This document shows, in pieces, positions 3,561 through 58,655 of a stretch of 64,000 nt of DNA. Both the position numbers and the translations under genes were made by a program. Under the pieces are notes generated by a model. The model worked only from the letters and a program-made list of their open reading frames with translations, searched no databases and was not told the DNA's origin. How positions within the stretch are numbered: position 1 is the first letter of the stretch; every line of letters begins with the position of its first letter. Origin of the DNA: Panorpa germanica (taxonomy: Eukaryota > Arthropoda > Insecta > Mecoptera > Panorpidae); contig OY783223.1 of the NCBI GenBank assembly GCA_963678705.1, positions 9,394,721 through 9,458,720 on the forward strand, written 5' to 3'.

Positions 3561-3745
3561 CACATTAAGTTTTCATGTGAGAAAAAGGTAATAAGCGAAA
3601 AGAATATTGGGCAGTTATTAAAGGGAGGCAGTAAAGGGATGATGTGGATGGCGGAGATAGAGAAAAGGAACGAGGAAAGAGAAGGAATGGCAGAATAGAG
3701 TTTTGTTTTTATTTGTGTAAGGATAAATTTATATATTTTTTTTTC
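3561..3745 (+). mobile_element. Non-LTR retrotransposon 3' end (stub A)
   Basis: Opens with HIKFSCEKKVISEKNIGQLL and runs in frame to a TAG at 3696-3698, ending EEREGMAE. The HIKF...C part is the last half of the C-terminal CCHC knuckle seen in full in the copies at 6597 and 58074; WMAEIEKR follows. It is severely 5'-truncated, which is usual for target-primed reverse transcription. The downstream 3' UTR (TTTTGTTTTTATTTG, then an AT tail) matches the inverted copy at 9171-9685. Not functional. Confidence 0.75.
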
Positions 3746-5751
3746 GTTTGGAAGGAGTGCGAATATTTAGATTTAATAAGGATCAAAATTAAATTAAGTA
3801 CAATGACATGTAAATAAATGAGTTAAGGCACCAGAATGTAGTATTAAATGGCAAAAACATTAAAATAAAAAAAAAATGCTGTTGCTTCATTTTCAACGGC
3901 AGTGACAAAATTGCTTTAAAACATCTGTATCTTAAGTATGCTGTTGCTTCAATTGTTTTATTAAGTAAAATTAACATAAAGTTGTAGAAAAAATACAACA
4001 AATAAACGGTAACACTAATAAAAACTTTGAGAGCCACTGTTTCGATTTATAACGACCTTTATAAGTTCGGATTTCTTTTCTTTCATTTTATTGAATACAA
4101 TATTATACAAGAGGGGTGATTTAGATAGTTCACAATATTTAGAAACCAATTTCTTTATCGAGAATCACAGTAAAACTAAATACATATCTTTTCAGCCTTA
4201 TTGTGAACCTTCCAATAACTTTCGATTTATTTTAAGGACGTCTCAGCTTCACTTACGTTTGCACCTTTATGAGATTTAAGTTCCATCTTACTTTGTTCCT
4301 TAATAAAAAGCTAAATTTTTTTCATCTATTCATAAATCGCACGCGACTATATACAAATAAAATGTATAAAAGAACACAACTTAAAAAAATATGATAGCTA
4401 GCTATCTTGGATCATCGCTAACGTTTATAAGGGTTGATATAGAACGGACTGAACGCAGCGGCGCGGCAGTTGCAATTAAATAATGATTTTCAAATAAGGG
4501 TAAGAACGGTAAGGGTTGCATCTTGACAAAACACGAGTATAAGTCGCCTCAATTAAGGAAAATAAATGTGTATATAGACATTTTAGCCTTTAGTTGCCGC
4601 AATAATGTTGTTGAGTGTAGGTGTTAGTAGTGTCAACCTGAGAAAAAGGCCGAGATTAGATGAAAGTGATGATGCATTAAGGGGATCGTCTCCTAGGTGA
4701 TATTTAATCTAAATCGTGTGTTCATTAGATCCATTTTCTATCAAATATTTACTGTTTAGAAAATATTTTTTTGGTGAAATGTATTAAATAAAGATGAATA
4801 AATGATTTAATAATGAAAAAATTTTAAAAATTCGTATAGAACTAGTATAAATTAATTGCTAAAAAGTACCAATTTTTGCAATGTTTAAGGTGCTTTATTT
4901 TGCCCTTAAGGTTAGAATATTAAAAATTTGAACTTATTAACTCTTAGGTTTAACCTTACCCTTTAATACTTTATTATCTTTGATAATTTTCGACTCAGAA
5001 TACCAAGTAGGAAATGTATTTTAGTAAGTCATGTTTTTGAATTATTTTATTCAATAAAATCACTTGCCTACATTCAGATGCGGTGAGGAATCGGGCAGAG
5101 GGGAAATGGTGGGGGTAATTTCACAGACAGGTTAAAGCTGCTGATTTCTATGCATGTGTGCATACTGTTTGTGCGTATGAAGATTTTGTGTAGTATGCGT
5201 GTAGCTTATCTGGAGTATGCTATGCTGTATGTTATCTCTCTAATTTATCAATAACATTTACAGGCTCTAAAGCTGGTGTCGTTCTAAGTTATTTAAGAAA
5301 TTGAATAGCCCACATCTCTGATTCATTTTAACATACTAGCGTTCACCATGTCGCAAAGCGACGACTGTTCTATATTGTTGAGTTGAATACAATGTAATAA
5401 CTCGTAATTTCATTTCAAATTTTTATTCCATCGTTAAACTGAAATATTTGGATATAATAATGAAGAGGCGTTCAATATTAAAAATATTTTTTCATATAAC
5501 CTAAATATAAAAAAAAATATTTGTTTCAATTTATTTGTTTCATTTGTTTTATTTTGTTTTAAACTTACGCGTTTTTTGACAAACTTTTTTTTTTCAAAAT
5601 TTCGATTTCAAATGTAAAACCTTAGTAAAAACTATAATAAAACCTATGTATTATGTATAGAGAACAATAACAATTCTTGTAACATAAATTTGAACATGGT
5701 TCGAAGTACAATATGCACAGGTCAAGGATAGCAATTAAAGACGGAAATCGA
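3746..5751. other. Anonymous AT-rich DNA
   Basis: I see no supported gene. Short open frames here (for example at 3789-4037 on the minus strand, composed of F, L and Y) follow from A/T composition. Poly-T runs lie near 3735 and 5585. Confidence 0.6.
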
Positions 5752-6590
5752 TGAAAGAAGCTGACCAAGAGAAGCTAAACTGGCAATATCTGAAGTTAGT
5801 GTGGACACAGACTTTAATAACGGTGGTCGCTGATGGTGCTTGGGCGAAGAGGTCTTACAAACCTAGTTACAACTCTGTTATGAACAAAATACTACTAGTT
5901 ACAACTCGGTTATAAAACTAGTTACAATCTGTAATGAATCATGATTCGTTTGATATAAAAATTGGGATCAATCTGCTAAGTCTATAAAAGCTGACATTAT
6001 TGCAGAAGGTTTTAGCCGTAGTGTAGAAATGCATGGACCAAAATATAACAGATTAATTGGTGGCAACGACGTAGTGTCATATACCGAATATTTAAACATA
6101 ACCTTTTGGTCCTAATCTACTGGTGGAAATGCTGCCGAATATTTTAATCCTATTGTTGCAAAATACATAGAGATTCAAGTGTTTCGTTGTAGATTTGTAG
6201 TTCGTTTAAAAATACTTCTCCGAATTTGGTTGACTTAGATCTAGTATTTTATTTTAACACACTTATATTACCCATATAATTAAGTAACAGAATCTATATG
6301 GTACAAAATATGGTTTTTCTTAATGATTTAAAATGGTAATATAAGTAAATTGTCGTTTTTAATTTACCAAACAAGAGTAAATAATACACTTCGTGGATCT
6401 TATGAAGCGAGGTATAATATAGCTGTTTCATCTTACGACAAAGGAAAAGAGCTGCACTGGTCATTGCATAAGGCACTACTTGATGAAAAACTGTCCAGAA
6501 AAGTATACGCAGAAATGTTCAAGTAGAAAATTTAGAGAAAATAAAAATATAGAACGAAGACGCTTAATATTCGCGGAAAGCAAAATTTTA
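5752..6590 (+). pseudogene. Mutator-like transposase domain remnant, 5' part of a Mutator-YqaJ gene
   Basis: Several islands in shifting frames resemble the uncharacterised Mutator-like transposase domain of insect proteins. They are LITVVADGAWAKRSYK near 5810-5865, ADIIAEGFSRSVEMHG and KYNRLIGG near 5990-6060, NAAEYFNPIVAKYIE near 6128-6172, and LRGSYEARYNIAV followed by LHWSLHKAL at 6389-6470. A basic tail with KYTQK and RKFRENKN follows at 6500-6545. Island order matches the family as I remember it. Frames change between islands (near 5815 and 6480), a stretch after 6082 is missing, and 6173-6376 holds unrelated sequence. It is therefore a dead copy. The YqaJ nuclease region follows at 7124 on the same strand, separated only by a retrotransposon. 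Role (DNA transposition) is inferred from the domain name only. Confidence 0.7.
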
Positions 6591-6596
6591 AAGAAA

Positions 6597-7121
6597 ATAA
6601 GAGAGGATAGCATAAAGAATGGGGGGGAGGAGGTCCAAAAAAGAGAAAGGAGTACTTTGAAAGGAATGGAATGGTGATCGAGGAGGCAGAGAGGAGAAGA
6701 GAAGGTGGCGCAAGTGTGGAAGAGGAGCTAAGGAGAAGGGAGAAGAAGATACAACAGCAGGAGAGAATGGGAAAAATAGAAAAAAGTAACTACAATAAAA
6801 GATATAAAAGGTTATGGGAAAATAATGTGCCTCAGTACCTTATAGAAAAAGACATAAAAACACATAAGAAGAACAGCAAGGTTTAGATTGGGAAATGAGG
6901 AAAAAGGAAACAGATACTGGGACAAGAGTGAGGAAAGAAAGTGTAGAATGTGCGGAGCGGAGGACGAAACACTGGAGCACATTAAGTTTGAGTGTAAGGA
7001 AAAAGTAGCGAGCGAAAGGAATATTGGCCAGCTATTTAAAGGGAGGCAGTGATGAAATGTATTAGAAATATAATACTGTAGATTGTAAAGCCGAAAGGCA
7101 CACACAATTAATATATATAAT
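6597..7121 (+). mobile_element. 5'-truncated non-LTR retrotransposon inserted in the Mutator-YqaJ gene (stub B)
   Basis: Encodes the C-terminal end of a reverse-transcriptase polyprotein. A Glu/Arg-rich segment (EAERRREGG, EEELRRREKKIQQQERM) is followed by YKRLWENNVPQYLIEKDIK, then FRLGNEEKGNRYW after a frame change near 6885. A knuckle C-x2-C-x8-H-x4-C has Cys at 6942 and 6951, His at 6978 and Cys at 6993. A stop lies at 7050-7052; compared with stub A, an indel just before it shifts the frame. The 3' UTR has a CCGAAAGG motif near 7090 and an AT-rich TAA-like tail, as in the copy at 58074. A target duplication was not resolved. The insertion separates the two halves of a pseudogene, so it postdates the arrival of that gene. 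Confidence 0.75.
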
Positions 7122-7123
7122 AA

Positions 7124-7855
7124 CAAGAACAATTTAAAAAATCACTTTGTAAAACCTCAGTGGAGATAATTGAGCTTGAAAAGAATACAAAAGAGCAAAG
7201 TCGCAATATCTTGTGGAAGCAAGAAAGATAGAAGCGACTAACATCATCTTCATTTGGTAAAGTTTGTAAAATGAGAAAGAAGACATCTTGTGCAAATTTA
7301 GTCAAAAACCATCTTTATAGCACATTTGCTGGAAATAAAGCAACAAGATATGGTATAGAAAAAGAACCTGTGGCTAAAAATGATGTATCGAAGTTACTAA
7401 ATTTAGAAATAGCAGATGCAGGTTTATTTATTGACAAAAACTATCCATTTCTTGCAGCTAGTCCTGATGGACTAATAGGAGAAGATGGTTTAATAGAAAT
7501 TAAATGTCCAGCTTCCAGTATGTTAACAGCAATTGCGGCAATTGAATCAAAGAAAGTAACATTTGGAACAATTGCAAATGGCTTGTTTAAATTAAAAAAA
7601 AATCATGATTTTTACTATCAAATACAAAGGCAGCTACAAGTTACACAACGCAAATATTGTTTGTTTGTGTTTTGGACTCCTGTTGAAAAACCAATCAATA
7701 TTCTCTATGAGAGAATTGAAAGAAATGAGAGATTTTGGGAAGAAGAAATGAAATCCAAATTATTATTTTTTTATAACGAATGCTTACTTCCCGAGATAGT
7801 AGACTCTCGATACCTTCGAAATATGCCTATTCGAAATCCAGATCGTAATGGATAA
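7124..7855 (+). pseudogene. YqaJ-like (lambda exonuclease family) nuclease domain, 3' part of a Mutator-YqaJ gene
   Basis: The 194-codon open frame from ATG 7271 has the PD-(D/E)xK signature of YqaJ nucleases. It shows GIEKEPVA (residues 28-35, first conserved acidic residues), SPDG with D66, IEIKCP with E76 and K78, and an alpha-helical Q-rich stretch QIQRQLQVT (117-125). PEIVDSRYLRNMPIR near the end resembles the usual C-terminus. Homology does not begin at the ATG. The same frame is open back to 7124 and carries EKNTKEQSRNILW, interrupted by one TAG at 7229-7231 inside a conserved R-x-x-RLT stretch. The ATG is thus a secondary start after a nonsense mutation. The catalytic core itself is undamaged. 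In lambda exonuclease relatives this fold resects double-stranded DNA ends; a transposon-associated role here is inference. Confidence 0.8.
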
Positions 7856-9170
7856 TTTATAATCAAGAAACCACAGTTTTATGTTTAGTTTTTATCAAAT
7901 TAATAGGTTATAAAAGTACATATATTTATATATGTATAATTTTAGAATATTAAAATTATTAAAAATTGTTACATTAAATTTTATTAGTTTTTTTTAATTA
8001 TATTATAATATAATTTAATTAAATTGTTATATTTTTATTTATTCTTAGTGTAAAATTTTATGGTTCTTTTATTTTAATGTTGTGCAACACTGGAAATCTT
8101 AATTACGCTTACAAATAGTTTTTATCCCTGAGATAAGACTTTTTAGCCACGCCTACGCACTCGTCTTTCCCTTCTACACTTCTTAAAATGCTTTGTTTAT
8201 TTTAAGTTCCTCTCTGAGGAGACGAGCGCCTTAAGTGAAATTGAACCAGTTGATCAACTGTGTATAAAAAAGAATTCTTTAAAGTTTGATACAATTAATA
8301 GTGAGAAAAAAGCGATATGCTTAGTGTGTGAAATATTTAGAATGAAAACTTTGTTAAAGACTATCTTAGGAGGACTTTCTCATCTCGTGTGAAGCACTAG
8401 CTTCAATATATTCCGATAGCTTGTACTGTCTTAAAATAGTCGAGTCTACAGTGTGTGGTAAATCAATCATACGATCTTGGAGGATAATTTCTTGCAATCA
8501 TTATGTCGCATATTATGTAGTGTACAATGTTAAATGATAAAATAATTTTAAAGATGCCTGCGATTATCTGTCAATAGTTAAATAATAATAAATGAGGTAA
8601 TCAGAGCATCAAATGATCCACCTACACTACTAGACCAATTAATCTATGTACACTGTACAGTACGTATCTATCATTTCATCAGTGATAGTTACTGATAGGC
8701 ATAGCTTCGTCTAGACTGGACTGGACTAGAACAGTAAAATGCTAGACTAGGCTGGAATAAAGCTAAACAGAAATGAACATAAACAGGTTAGGTCGTACAT
8801 TCATGATTAATACAAATGGCTTCTGACATTCAAATATGACGGCTTATGAACAACTGTATAGTCAAAAGGAGTTCTATAGATAAGAATCTCTCGTCAAAAG
8901 ATATTAAGAATAATAAAAATTCATGGAATTTTTGTAAGCTTAGTTTTATTTGAAGTCTCCCACACTTCTGCGAATCGTTTGGTAAATTAAAAATACCCGC
9001 ATGGCGTCATATGGTATGGTGCATGTGCATGGCTAATTAGTACCATAGTAATTAACAATTTGAGGAATAACGTCTTGTTAATTTGATAGTTATGTTTAAA
9101 ATATTAAATACTATTGCTTAACATTGTGACATATATTTAATGTCCATTAAATATAAATAAAATTACCTTA
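7856..9170. other. Anonymous DNA downstream of the YqaJ remnant
   Basis: Very AT-rich at 7900-8050, then mixed. The 3' boundary of the Mutator-YqaJ element should lie here, but I could not identify a TIR or target duplication. No other gene supported. Confidence 0.55.
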
Positions 9171-9685
9171 AATATAAAATAAAATAAATATTAATAAAAT
9201 ATCCTTATAAAAATAAAAACAAAATTGCTACTGCTTCGCTCCTCCTGCTACTCTCCATCCTGTTTCTACTCTGCCATTCCTTCTCTTTCCTCGCTCCTTT
9301 TCTCTATCTCCGCCATCCACCTCTTCCCTTCACTGTCTCCCTTTAATAACTAATATTCTTTTCGCTTATTACCTTTTTCTCACATGAAAACTTAATGTGC
9401 TCAAATGTTTCTATCTCCTCGCTTTCCTCGCTATTTTCCCAGTATCTGTTTCCTTTCTCCTCGTTTCTCAATCTGAATCTGGCAATCTTTCTCATGTTTT
9501 TTGTGTATTTTTCTCTTAAGTATTGTGGTATCTCTCTCTCTCTCTCTCAAATCCATTTATATCTTTTGTTATTATTGCTCTTCTCAATATTTTCCATTCT
9601 TTCCTGTTGTTGTATCTCCCTGTCTCTTCTCCTTAGCTCTTCTTCCACACTTGTGCCTTCTTCTCCCTGCCTCGAATAAAGATAA
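9171..9685 (-). mobile_element. Non-LTR retrotransposon 3' end, inverted (stub C)
   Basis: Reverse complement of the same family as stubs A and B. It reads VEEELRRRDREIQQQERM, then NEEKGNRYWENSEES, then HIKFSCEKKVISEKNI, in frames broken by indels. The first two Cys of the knuckle are lost (the expected C-x2-C lies in a run of E and S codons). A (CT)n tract at about 9534-9548 sits inside it and disrupts the frame. Its 3' UTR matches stub A. The ORFs that appear on the plus strand here are C/T-rich shadows of this element. Confidence 0.75.
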
Positions 9686-37139: not shown

Positions 37140-38118
37140 GTAGAATATTAAAATTAAAAAGAAATTTAAACATTTCATTTTCTTTAAAATAACTTTAGAG
37201 TGGATGATAAAGTAAAATTGTATACAAAAAACAAATTCTTACATACAAATATATCAGTATAAGTTAGTAAATAATATTTTAATTTGTTTTAACAAGCACA
37301 TTTGTTCACACAAGTGCTGCTATCTATAACATAAAATTGAAATTATTATTAATTTTTATATTTTTTGTACTTAGACTACTACCAACTTTGTCTTTTTTAC
37401 TCTTATATAGAGGTGAGAGTACTTGAATATTAAAATTTACAAAAAATAAAACACTCTTTTTCTTTAAAATAACTTTAGAGTGGGGGATAAAGTAAAACTA
37501 TATACAAAAAACAAATTCTTACATACAAATATATCAGTATAAGTTAGTAAATAATATTTTAATTTGTTTTAACAAGCACATTTGTTCACACAAGTGCTGC
37601 TATCTATAACATAAAATTGAAATTATTATTAATTTTTATATTTTTTGTACTTAGACTACTACCAACTTTGTCTTTTTTACTCTTATATAGAGGTGAGAGT
37701 ACTTGAATATTAAAATTTACAAAAAATAAAACACTCTTTTTCTTTAAAATAACTTTAGAGTGGGGGATAAAGTAAAATTTTATACAAAAAACAAATTCTT
37801 ACATACAAATATATCAGTATAAGTTAGTAAATAATATTTTATTTTGTTTTAACAAGCACATTTGTTCACACAAGTGCTGCTATCTATAACATAAAATTGA
37901 AATTATTATTAATTTTTATATTTTTTGTACTTAGACTACTACCAACTTTGTCTTTTTTACTCTTATATAGAGGTGAGAGTACTTGAATATTAAAATTTAC
38001 AAAAAATAAAACACTCTTTTTCTTTAAAATAACTTTAGAGTGGGGGATAAAGTAAAATTTTATACAAAAAACAAATTCTTACATACAAATATATCATTAA
38101 AAGTTAGTAAATAAATAT
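37140..38118 (+). repeat. Tandem array, 280-bp unit, about 3.4 copies
   Basis: The block TCTTTAAAATAACTTTAGAG recurs at 37181, 37461, 37741 and 38021, an exact 280-bp period. Units are nearly identical (a few substitutions such as GGATG/GGGGG and TTAATTTG/TTATTTTG). The first unit is diverged on its left side (from about 37140), and the fourth breaks off at ATATATCATTAAAAG near 38100. The unit contains AACAAGCACATTTGTTCACA and no coding frame. High identity and equal length imply recent unequal exchange or satellite-like expansion. Confidence 0.95.
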
Positions 38119-38805
38119 TTCTTTTTGTCATTGCCATGTAGGATAATTGCACTATAAATTAGGCAATGATGAGATGCAATATTTGAAACAACTGACTTTG
38201 CAATCTCTGTTTTAGATTTCCAAATTCTTAGCCAAAATATGTCTTACTTTGTGCAGCCGTTAAGGAATGAGATACCCGCTACATTTTAAAGGATATAAGA
38301 TTCTGTAACATGGACACAGATGTATGTTGCAAAAACGGGATAACCAACCCGTTGATCGCGTTCTAAAAGACATATAACATCTTAAAATATATAAATTGAA
38401 CTAAATCTGGAAGTGATTTGCAATCCCTGCTATTCAGAGTACTGCAAGCGCTTACTGGACATAATAAAACAATATCATATAAATACAAAACATAATAAGT
38501 AAGTTCACCAACATAACTCTGTCTACAAAAAACTCAGCCAAAACATTTTACATGTTATGGATTATAAATTGTGTCGTCCGTCCGTCCTGTTGTCCCAGTG
38601 CCGTAGTGTCCCGGTGTCCCGGTGTCCCGCGTTTGTAATGTTGGTGTATTAAATTCACTATTCTCTATGAAAACTGAGAGATTCATTTCTCACGTCCGTT
38701 GGAACATGCTGGTGTTCGTACAGAAGCGCGGAAAATTTGGCTTGCATTGCAGTAATGACATTTTTACATGAAGAGAAATTTTTATTTTTATTAAATATAT
38801 TCAAT
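38119..38805. other. Anonymous DNA with a short GTGTCCC tandem
   Basis: At 38578-38631 a degenerate short tandem occurs (GTCCGTCCGTCCTG, then GTGTCCCG three times). No gene supported. Confidence 0.6.
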
Positions 38806-41324: not shown

Positions 41325-41991
41325 GAGATGTGGCGCCCCCACAAGGACATAGGCCAGAATTCTTGCGCTATACCGACCCATTATAATTGCCAGCTTAGTA
41401 TTTAACGATAGGAGGCTTACTTGGAAGAAGCACATATTTACTAAAAGAAAGCAGCTAGGTCTACAACTGCGGAAGATGTACTGGCTGATAGGACGGAAGT
41501 CACAACTTAGCACAGAAAACAAACTCCTGCTCTACAAAACCATACTTAAACCGGTATGGTCATATGGTATCCAACTATGGGGTACTGCATCTACCTCAAA
41601 TATTGAAATAATCCAAAGATTTCAGTCCGAAATGCTAAGGATTGTCACGAATGCACCATGGTTTGTACCTAATCACATAATACATCGGACCTGGATATAC
41701 CTACAGTAAATGAAGAAATAGTGCTTAGAACCAAAGTATACAAGGAGAGAATAATAGAACATCCAAACAATTTGGCCAGCAGTCTAATGTCCAATATTTC
41801 CGCAGTACGCAGACTGAAAAAGAAGGTACCTCAGGACCTACTAGCCAAATAAACAGAATCTATGATCTATTAAAATTGAGGGATGAGTCGATGGGCACAT
41901 CCCGCACAAGACACTTTATTTTGACATACCTATCACTGAATGTCCTATAAGCAGGACAGATTGTAATAATCTTTAGTAACCAAAAAAAAAA
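41325..41991 (+). mobile_element. Jockey-like non-LTR retrotransposon, 3' end with poly(A)
   Basis: Encodes the end of a jockey reverse transcriptase. DRRLTWKKHIFTKRKQLG leads into MYWLIGRKSQ (from 41476), then ILKPVWSYGIQLWGTAS and QRFQSEMLRIVTNAPW. A frame loss near 41688 separates this from DLDIPTVNEEI and KVYKERIIEHPNNLA, ending in a stop at 41850-41852. A 3' UTR of about 130 bp ends in a run of ten A at 41982-41991. The 5' part is missing, as expected for a truncated insertion. Target-site duplication was not established. Of the RT remnants here this is the clearest by similarity to insect jockey proteins. Confidence 0.9.
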
Positions 41992-57956: not shown

Positions 57957-58655
57957 TTAGTTTATCATCATTAATATTTGTCGTCTTTGTACTTGTTAAC
58001 TTTTATAACACTTCCAATATAAAATTTTATTTCTTGTCAATTATCATCATATATACTTACTTACAATTTACATTATTATTATTTATTTAATGTTTTACCT
58101 TTCGGCAGTACATTCTTCTGCCTTAGTACAATACATTTTAATCCATAAGTATATATATATACTCGTATATATATATATATTTCCTTCCACCGAAACCAAA
58201 AACTAAAAACCTCAATTCTCCTAATATCTACAAGAAAATAAATGGTTTAGCACATTTTCAAAAGATTTAATTAGCTTCAACCTTCCTTCTTCTAGTTATT
58301 TCTGCCATTCATCTGTTCTCTTCCTTGCCCCCTTTTAAGAGCCGCCCAATATTCATTTCGCTCCCAACTTTTTCCTGACAATCAAACTTAATGTGCTCCA
58401 GCGTTTCTTCCTCCGTTCCGCACACTCTACACACTCTTTCTTCTCTACATTCCCAGTATCTGTTTCCTTTTTCCTCATTTCCCAATCTAAACCTTGCTGT
58501 CCTTATGTTTTTTGTGTCTTTTTCTATTAAGTACTGAGGTATATTACTTTCCCAAATCCTTTTATATCTTGTACAATTTACATAAATTATACAAAGAACA
58601 AGTGTCTCGCAAAGATCTGCTGCCCGGGGCCTCGCAATGTCTAAGGGCGCCCCTG
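57957..58655. repeat. Dispersed repeat family H, copy interrupted by a retrotransposon
   Basis: Left part 57957-58073 and right part 58572-58655 together match 40750-40968. The right edge reads CAATGTCTAAGGGCGCCCCTG; its complement CAGGGGCGCCCTTAG is hAT-like. The family is older than the insertion it carries. Confidence 0.8.
58074..58571 (-). mobile_element. 5'-truncated non-LTR retrotransposon with 12-bp target duplication (stub D)
   Basis: TACAATTTACAT at 58062-58073 is repeated at 58572-58583 and brackets a 498-bp insert. Read on the minus strand it encodes WESNIPQYLIEKDTKNIR, FRLGNEEKGNRYWECR, then the complete knuckle CRVCGTEEETLEHIKFDC (C-x2-C-x8-H-x4-C), and MAEI after a stop. A 3' UTR with CTGCCGAAAGG follows, ending in a TAA-rich tail (AATAATAATAATG). 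It is the best-preserved member of the family in the window. A TAA-type tail is a feature of the I-like group, but the clade is not firmly assigned. A (TA)n run near 58150-58180 lies in its 3' UTR. Confidence 0.9.

Follow-up and report, generated by a model that had tools for sequence, protein, structure and literature searches.

A decayed passenger copy of a probable KolobokE DNA transposon, with intact relatives that carry a transposase and a YqaJ-type nuclease in one open frame

The broken gene in the window, by which we mean the whole 64,000-nucleotide stretch of Panorpa germanica DNA analysed here, is a decayed passenger copy that lies within a complete element bounded by terminal inverted repeats (TIRs) and TTAA. 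This non-autonomous, KolobokE-type element occupies 4677–8234 on the plus strand and measures 3558 bp including one TTAA at each end (4677–4680 and 8231–8234), and BLAST gives it the same boundaries as four sister copies and four intact ones at other places in the genome. The flanking TTAA is given as a target-site duplication on the empty-site evidence of an intact relative, not of the window's own site. The 5' TIR (4681–4694, plus strand) starts with GG and the 3' TIR (8217–8230, minus strand) ends with CC; with the TTAA included they form an 18-nt repeat (I10) of 89% complementarity, and the element ends read TTAAGGGGATCGTCTCCT and the inverse of TTAAGGCGCTCGTCTCCT. The original prediction had drawn a gene joining a transposase to a nuclease at 5752–7855. 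The gene is real but its placing was too narrow, as the transposase relic begins near 5625 and the unit is the whole element.

Alignment to an intact frame from the same genome resolved the transposase remains into pieces at 5625–5730, 5743–5875, 5924–6129, 6128–6170 and 6370–6585. The first four make up a PF20700 relic (5625–6170, plus strand) that covers residues about 207–242, 278–325 and 361–429 and then, across a deletion of residues about 429–567, joins directly to about 568–582, while the last piece (plus strand, residues about 583–655) is 85.6% identical to the intact element. Against Pfam, 5954–6112 scores 28.2 bits for PF20700, above the cut-off of 26.5, and 5739–5912 taken alone reaches 14 bits, under the same cut-off. 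In this relic the second catalytic aspartate (D406) has become glycine, the CxxH motif is deleted and the CCHC knuckle is not preserved; the catalytic glutamate is kept. With several frame breaks, a deletion, a stop and an inserted piece, the window copy holds no intact transposase gene. Downstream lies a YqaJ/lambda-exonuclease-like nuclease (7122–7855, plus strand; residues 684–927), of which 7124–7852 aligns to the intact protein in a single frame at 96% identity with one TAG at 7229–7231, and 7232–7852 matches PF09588 (YqaJ) at 58.4 bits (cut-off 22).

Both islands named in the original prediction are therefore real on these profile scores. Its nuclease residues D66/E76/K78, numbered from the window ATG at 7271, are the conserved counterparts of D798/E808/K810 in the intact frame, and the homologous frame continues upstream of that ATG, as had been proposed. 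The statement that only a retrotransposon separates the islands does not hold, since residues about 429–567 are deleted, about 200 bp of unmatched DNA (6171–6369) lies between the transposase pieces, and 84 bp of coding sequence is missing where a 536-bp piece (6586–7121, plus strand) now stands. This 536-bp piece has the appearance of a 3' fragment of a non-LTR retrotransposon, judged from its repetition in the window and from a zf-RVT match of 22 bits that falls below the cut-off of 27.5.

A profile search of the window's own genome (464 Mb, 249 contigs) returned 91 YqaJ and at least 118 PF20700 matches, the latter list resting on 114 scored candidates of 480. Contigs C3, C7, C9 and C11 each hold one open frame of 922–927 codons, stop to stop, that carries both domains; in the C7 frame PF20700 spans residues 160–521 at 293 bits and YqaJ residues 714–860 at 63.7 bits (Pfam). 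Counted from the first ATG, which falls at codon 83 in two of the four frames and at codon 13 in the other two, these frames comprise 910 (L061), 845 (L062), 845 (L063) and 915 (L064) residues. The four intact elements are 4322–4330 bp long and 99.0–99.8% identical, which suggests recent activity. A fifth fused locus, on C40, has a stop in its nuclease part. Because intact one-frame copies exist in the same genome, we conclude that the two window parts were once one protein, as the original prediction had supposed, and the intact fused copy with terminal repeats and target duplications that it proposed to look for was found without leaving that genome. The reading of the locus as a chance juxtaposition of two unrelated genes draws on their separate open frames and on the retrotransposon-like piece between them; it was rejected, and is vanishingly improbable, as the intact frames align with both window parts. 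In a third fused family (about 42% identical; L054, L056, L057, L059 and L060), the PF20700 match is split by 58–61 bp at the same place in at least seven copies, perhaps by a small intron.

In the intact copies the transposase carries D311, D406 and E571, a DDE triad with C432xxH435 between the second D and the E. A CCHC knuckle follows the first D (C350, C353, H367 and C369) in all eight family A loci, and its H is replaced by Q in two overlapping family B loci. Across three fused families there are few exceptions at the catalytic and knuckle residues and at the nuclease D798/E808/K810. The loci in this residue table were grouped by hand, and since several of them overlap, its rows do not each stand for an independent element; positions are absent from some rows of families B and C, and in one family C row D311 is replaced by H. 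Wherever a row of family A, B or C covers the nuclease D, E and K, all three are conserved. Four aligned sequences from families A, B and C share four invariant residues, H, H, C and C, in the stretch between CxxH and E, and these probably bind zinc. Between families A and B, dN/dS is 0.07–0.08 in the transposase core, a rough value because synonymous divergence is high (up to 2.0), and 0.16–0.18 in YqaJ, in a comparison that includes two family B loci with one stop each. By these ratios both domains are under purifying selection between the fused families, and the YqaJ ratio, taken with the kept D, E and K, suggests that the nuclease is useful to the element. The window YqaJ set against the intact one gives a dN/dS of 0.22 on few changes, which fits a recent gain of the 3' part from a working copy and would equally fit some constraint.

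The terminal-repeat pattern occurs 124 times in the genome with one mismatch allowed, and its reversed control does not occur. BLAST placed the boundaries of nine elements at TTAA on both sides; the elements found later came from a pattern that itself contains TTAA and do not count as independent evidence for TTAA ends. Inside the TTAA, the window element and 13 of 14 others begin with GG and end with CC, the fourteenth (L074) ending with TC, which is also YY. The flanks of nine copies were joined and matched to the genome in search of empty sites, with 40 of 3485 candidates scored, nearly all of them from one join. The joined flanks of L061, an intact copy inside a repeat, match at least 40 places across the junction, and the five empty sites chosen from the listed matches all have a single TTAA where the L061 copy has two, with matches that run up to 22 bases beyond the join into unrelated letters of the pasted query. 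Among the same best 40 of 3485 candidates, the other eight joins yielded one marginal junction-crossing match (L068, 9 bases past the TTAA), a scarcity that is not evidence against TTAA duplication because the L061 repeat filled the scored candidates. Thus TTAA is duplicated on insertion, as seen against empty sites for one intact copy, L061.

Members of the MuDR/Mutator superfamily make target-site duplications of 8–11 bp. The TTAA duplication therefore puts the element outside that superfamily, which we rejected as its home; the 'Mutator' of the original prediction is the name that Pfam gives to the domain. An assignment to piggyBac, which duplicates TTAA, was also rejected, as the ends here are GG...CC and those of piggyBac are not RR...YY, a contrast drawn in PMC9587614. 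The KolobokE passages of that paper (Kojima and Bao 2022) give as marks of the lineage a TTAA duplication, 5'-RR and YY-3' termini, a D-D-CxxH-E (C/DxxH) core, a CCHC motif after the first D, a zinc finger in the stretch from CxxH to E and, downstream, a nuclease resembling lambda exonuclease, and the intact copies show every sequence mark that was compared. On these marks the locus is very probably a non-autonomous copy of a KolobokE DNA transposon of the Kolobok superfamily. The combination of transposase and nuclease is already in print for other animals as KolobokE (PMC9587614), and the element joins a known lineage. The same passages stop short of saying that the two enzymes always form a single protein, and here the two are fused in one frame; the window copy differs from the KolobokE they describe in being a dead passenger with mosaic ends. 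Within the open-access literature searched, the term 'KolobokE' appears in this one paper, and no paper pairs 'YqaJ' with 'Mutator-like transposase'. The assignment suggests that gene models annotated 'Mutator' and 'YqaJ' may belong to the KolobokE lineage.

The window copy is one of at least nine TIR-bounded elements of 3558–3572 bp. Over 2521 bp, five of seven sisters are identical to it, one is 1 base off, and one differs by 5 bases and a 10-base gap; at full length, comparison with four sisters gave 0 or 1 differences and one 14-bp gap. At least 24 copies, among the best 40 of 873 candidates, share the decayed interior of the window copy at 95% or more, and in every one of the 24 the YqaJ match contains one TAG or more. 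The nuclease TAG stands in the same 14-base context in 11 of 11 other satellite elements (16 satellite loci, which represent 11 distinct elements besides the window) and in none of three autonomous-type loci. A lesion shared by copies at different sites implies that these copies were moved by an enzyme made elsewhere, in trans, and the intact copies with the same ends would be its obvious source. The YqaJ match is kept by 31 of 32 TIR-bounded elements and the PF20700 match by 10 (among 100 of the 124 TIR matches). Retention of YqaJ as the sign of a working stand-alone nuclease in dead copies was rejected as the simplest reading, given a TAG in 24 of 24. The YqaJ part is probably carried along, because of these TAGs, because of its position beside the 3' end and because the non-coding last 379 bp is at least as similar to the intact element (4 of 378 differences) as the coding part is (16 of 723). 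One satellite, L071 (C7:10938560–10943920), has about 1.6 kb of extra DNA beside the retrotransposon-like piece, with two similar frames of 76–79 amino acids on the minus strand, so that another repeat has perhaps inserted there.

Compared with the intact C7 element, the window copy is a mosaic. Its left end (4677–4976, plus strand) has 0 differences in 300 bp, followed by 36 of 311 in the next 330 bp; five interior blocks differ at 9–21%, and the right side falls back to 16 of 723 in the 3' coding part and 4 of 378 in the last 379 bp. Set against the 300–630 stretch, the left end gave 1.2e-11 and the right end 3.1e-12 in Fisher tests, and the same tests between two autonomous-type copies gave 0.35 and 0.26. 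The first 300 bp are not frozen, for among the best 40 copies scored, 25, the four intact copies included, lie within about one base of the window, and others drop to 92–96%. Such a step between ends and interior is not producible by one history, and the lineage would therefore appear to have exchanged ends with the active element; near-identical ends in a dead lineage are as expected if ends are renewed by recombination.

We give even odds to the mosaic being the product of ordinary recombination between repeats, or of a chance template switch, with the nuclease uninvolved. One exchange per end suffices, the five satellites compared share the 5' boundary, and what we see is one mosaic lineage among repeats whose recombination needs no help; against this, the exchanged tracts sit at both termini, where the transposase cuts, and satellite L074 has a further different 3' end, its last 100 bp being 4–8 of 100 from the others. 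It is a long shot that the fused nuclease itself makes KolobokE ends recombinogenic, in which case cut ends would be resected and repaired from other copies, and the ends of dead passengers would be repeatedly overwritten and stay mobile. Were that so, the window lineage would preserve such overwriting in fossil form, its end tracts measuring about 300 bp and 1.1 kb; the processivity of a related exonuclease, given as 746 nt in PMC3118119, is of that order of magnitude.

Across the genome, PF20700 lies upstream on the same strand within 8 kb of at least 30 of the 91 YqaJ matches, and at least 12 of these share one open frame of 500 codons or more (judged by an identical frame length, no shorter than 500 codons, in the two match lists), at odds with the two domains always lying on separate genes, which the original prediction had named as the outcome that would count against it. 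At least 28 further YqaJ matches lie in or near Kolobok terminal repeats (100 of 124 TIR matches, 10-kb limit), and at least 16 are paired with a DDE_Tnp_4 match that runs on the other strand, a lower bound, these being 16 of 151 DDE_Tnp_4 matches picked by eye for nearness to YqaJ; 17 of the 91 fall in none of these layouts among the matches listed. From the other side, 76 of 117 PF20700 matches (of the 118, 117 entered the layout count) have no YqaJ match within 8 kb; many are short pieces, and 13 stand in frames of 400 codons or more. Kolobok lineages that lack a lambda-exonuclease-like nuclease are described in the Kolobok passages of PMC9587614, and since such lineages are published and 76 of 117 PF20700 matches stand without YqaJ, the nuclease is dispensable for Kolobok transposition in general.

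The opposite-strand pairs of DDE_Tnp_4 and YqaJ (C1:18506729–18508118, C5:14764573–14765953 and 14 others in this genome) have ISL2EU-like gene content. ISL2EU, of the PIF/Harbinger group, is likewise a DNA transposon with a YqaJ nuclease, described by Han et al. (2015, PMC4482050) as a separate ORF beside a PIF/Harbinger-type transposase, whereas the intact copies here have YqaJ in the same open frame as PF20700. A YqaJ adjoining DDE_Tnp_4 is 32% identical over 217 amino acids to that of the fused frame. The YqaJ family thus serves two kinds of transposase in two layouts, and the fused layout is therefore no accident of the window locus. Stand-alone relatives are the lambda-type alkaline exonucleases (PDB 3syy; SXT-Exo, PMC3118119), which belong to the same family by sequence with aligned D...ExK residues; by contrast, the nuclease here is fused to a transposase. 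A search of viral contigs based on a four-sequence alignment, in one scan with two peptide patterns, matched 29 stretches and confirmed none of them as a relative. The best explanation as a whole, to which we assign a probability of about 0.85, is a KolobokE copy, a fused DDE-nuclease protein and mobilisation in trans.

The intact protein starts with an N-terminal region, continues with a DDE transposase that bears a CCHC knuckle and CxxH, and ends in a PD-(D/E)xK nuclease of the lambda-exonuclease/YqaJ type. Its transposase is expected to bind the GG...CC terminal repeats, cut the element out and insert it at TTAA, duplicating TTAA, with the cutting steps and DDE strand transfer taken over from the family. 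The window copy, having lost its transposase, would have been multiplied by the intact protein in trans, as its shared lesions, near-identical copies and different sites suggest. While the transposase keeps it at the ends, the nuclease may chew the 5' strands at the cut DNA, and the gap might then be repaired from another copy, which would restore the donor copy and renew the element ends. End resection that steers repair towards copying from another element is the most likely role of the nuclease, one that we put forward tentatively on the basis of kinship and of one mosaic lineage; 5'-to-3' chewing is reported for SXT-Exo (PMC3118119). No test of the purpose of the nuclease, or of the suggestion in the original prediction that the fusion implies a mechanism unlike cut-and-paste, was found in the open-access literature searched.

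In Tn7, TnsB and TnsA share the work of strand cutting. That pair likewise combines a DDE transposase with a PD-(D/E)xK nuclease, both parts belonging to families different from those of KolobokE. By analogy, the two strands at the element ends might be cut by different domains, the first by the DDE domain and the second by the fused PD-(D/E)xK domain acting as an endonuclease. We regard this as unlikely. Three points speak for it: the same two folds occur in one protein, both domains keep their catalytic residues, and the gap from one domain match to the other hardly varies (577 bp in each of the four intact copies, 544 bp at seven family C places). Against it, the nuclease finds its best sequence match among solved structures in an exonuclease (PDB 3syy, entry name 'Exonuclease', E 1.1e-6); in the experiments described in PMC3118119, one characterised enzyme of the lambda-exonuclease family had no detectable endonuclease activity; and the published nuclease-free Kolobok lineages (PMC9587614) also weigh against a cutting role. 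Doubtful, too, is a copy-out-paste-in route through a circular intermediate, as suggested for KolobokP, in which the nuclease would clear linear or flapped by-products. It takes its support from KolobokP excision footprints, which lose 1–5 bp on one side only and which the authors compare with IS3 and IS256 in the relevant passages of PMC9587614.

The interest of the locus is modest and lies in the role of the nuclease and in the renewed ends. The genome offers intact copies, a large passenger family, PF20700 relatives that have no YqaJ close by, and pairs of the ISL2EU-like kind, and with these four resources the role of an end-chewing nuclease in a cut-and-paste transposon is directly testable. 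Elsewhere in the window, pieces akin to the 536-bp piece lie at 58326–58570 (minus strand, about 87% alike), 9330–9665 (minus strand, about 78%; also delimited as 9422–9665) and 3561–3632 (plus strand, about 82%), and a 118-aa open frame at 41353–41709 (plus strand) resembles, by eye, the terminal part of a non-LTR reverse transcriptase. A tandem array at 37143–38120, with a 280-bp unit in 3.5 copies and 97% matches, falls in the 2 kb of the window that are richest in A+T.
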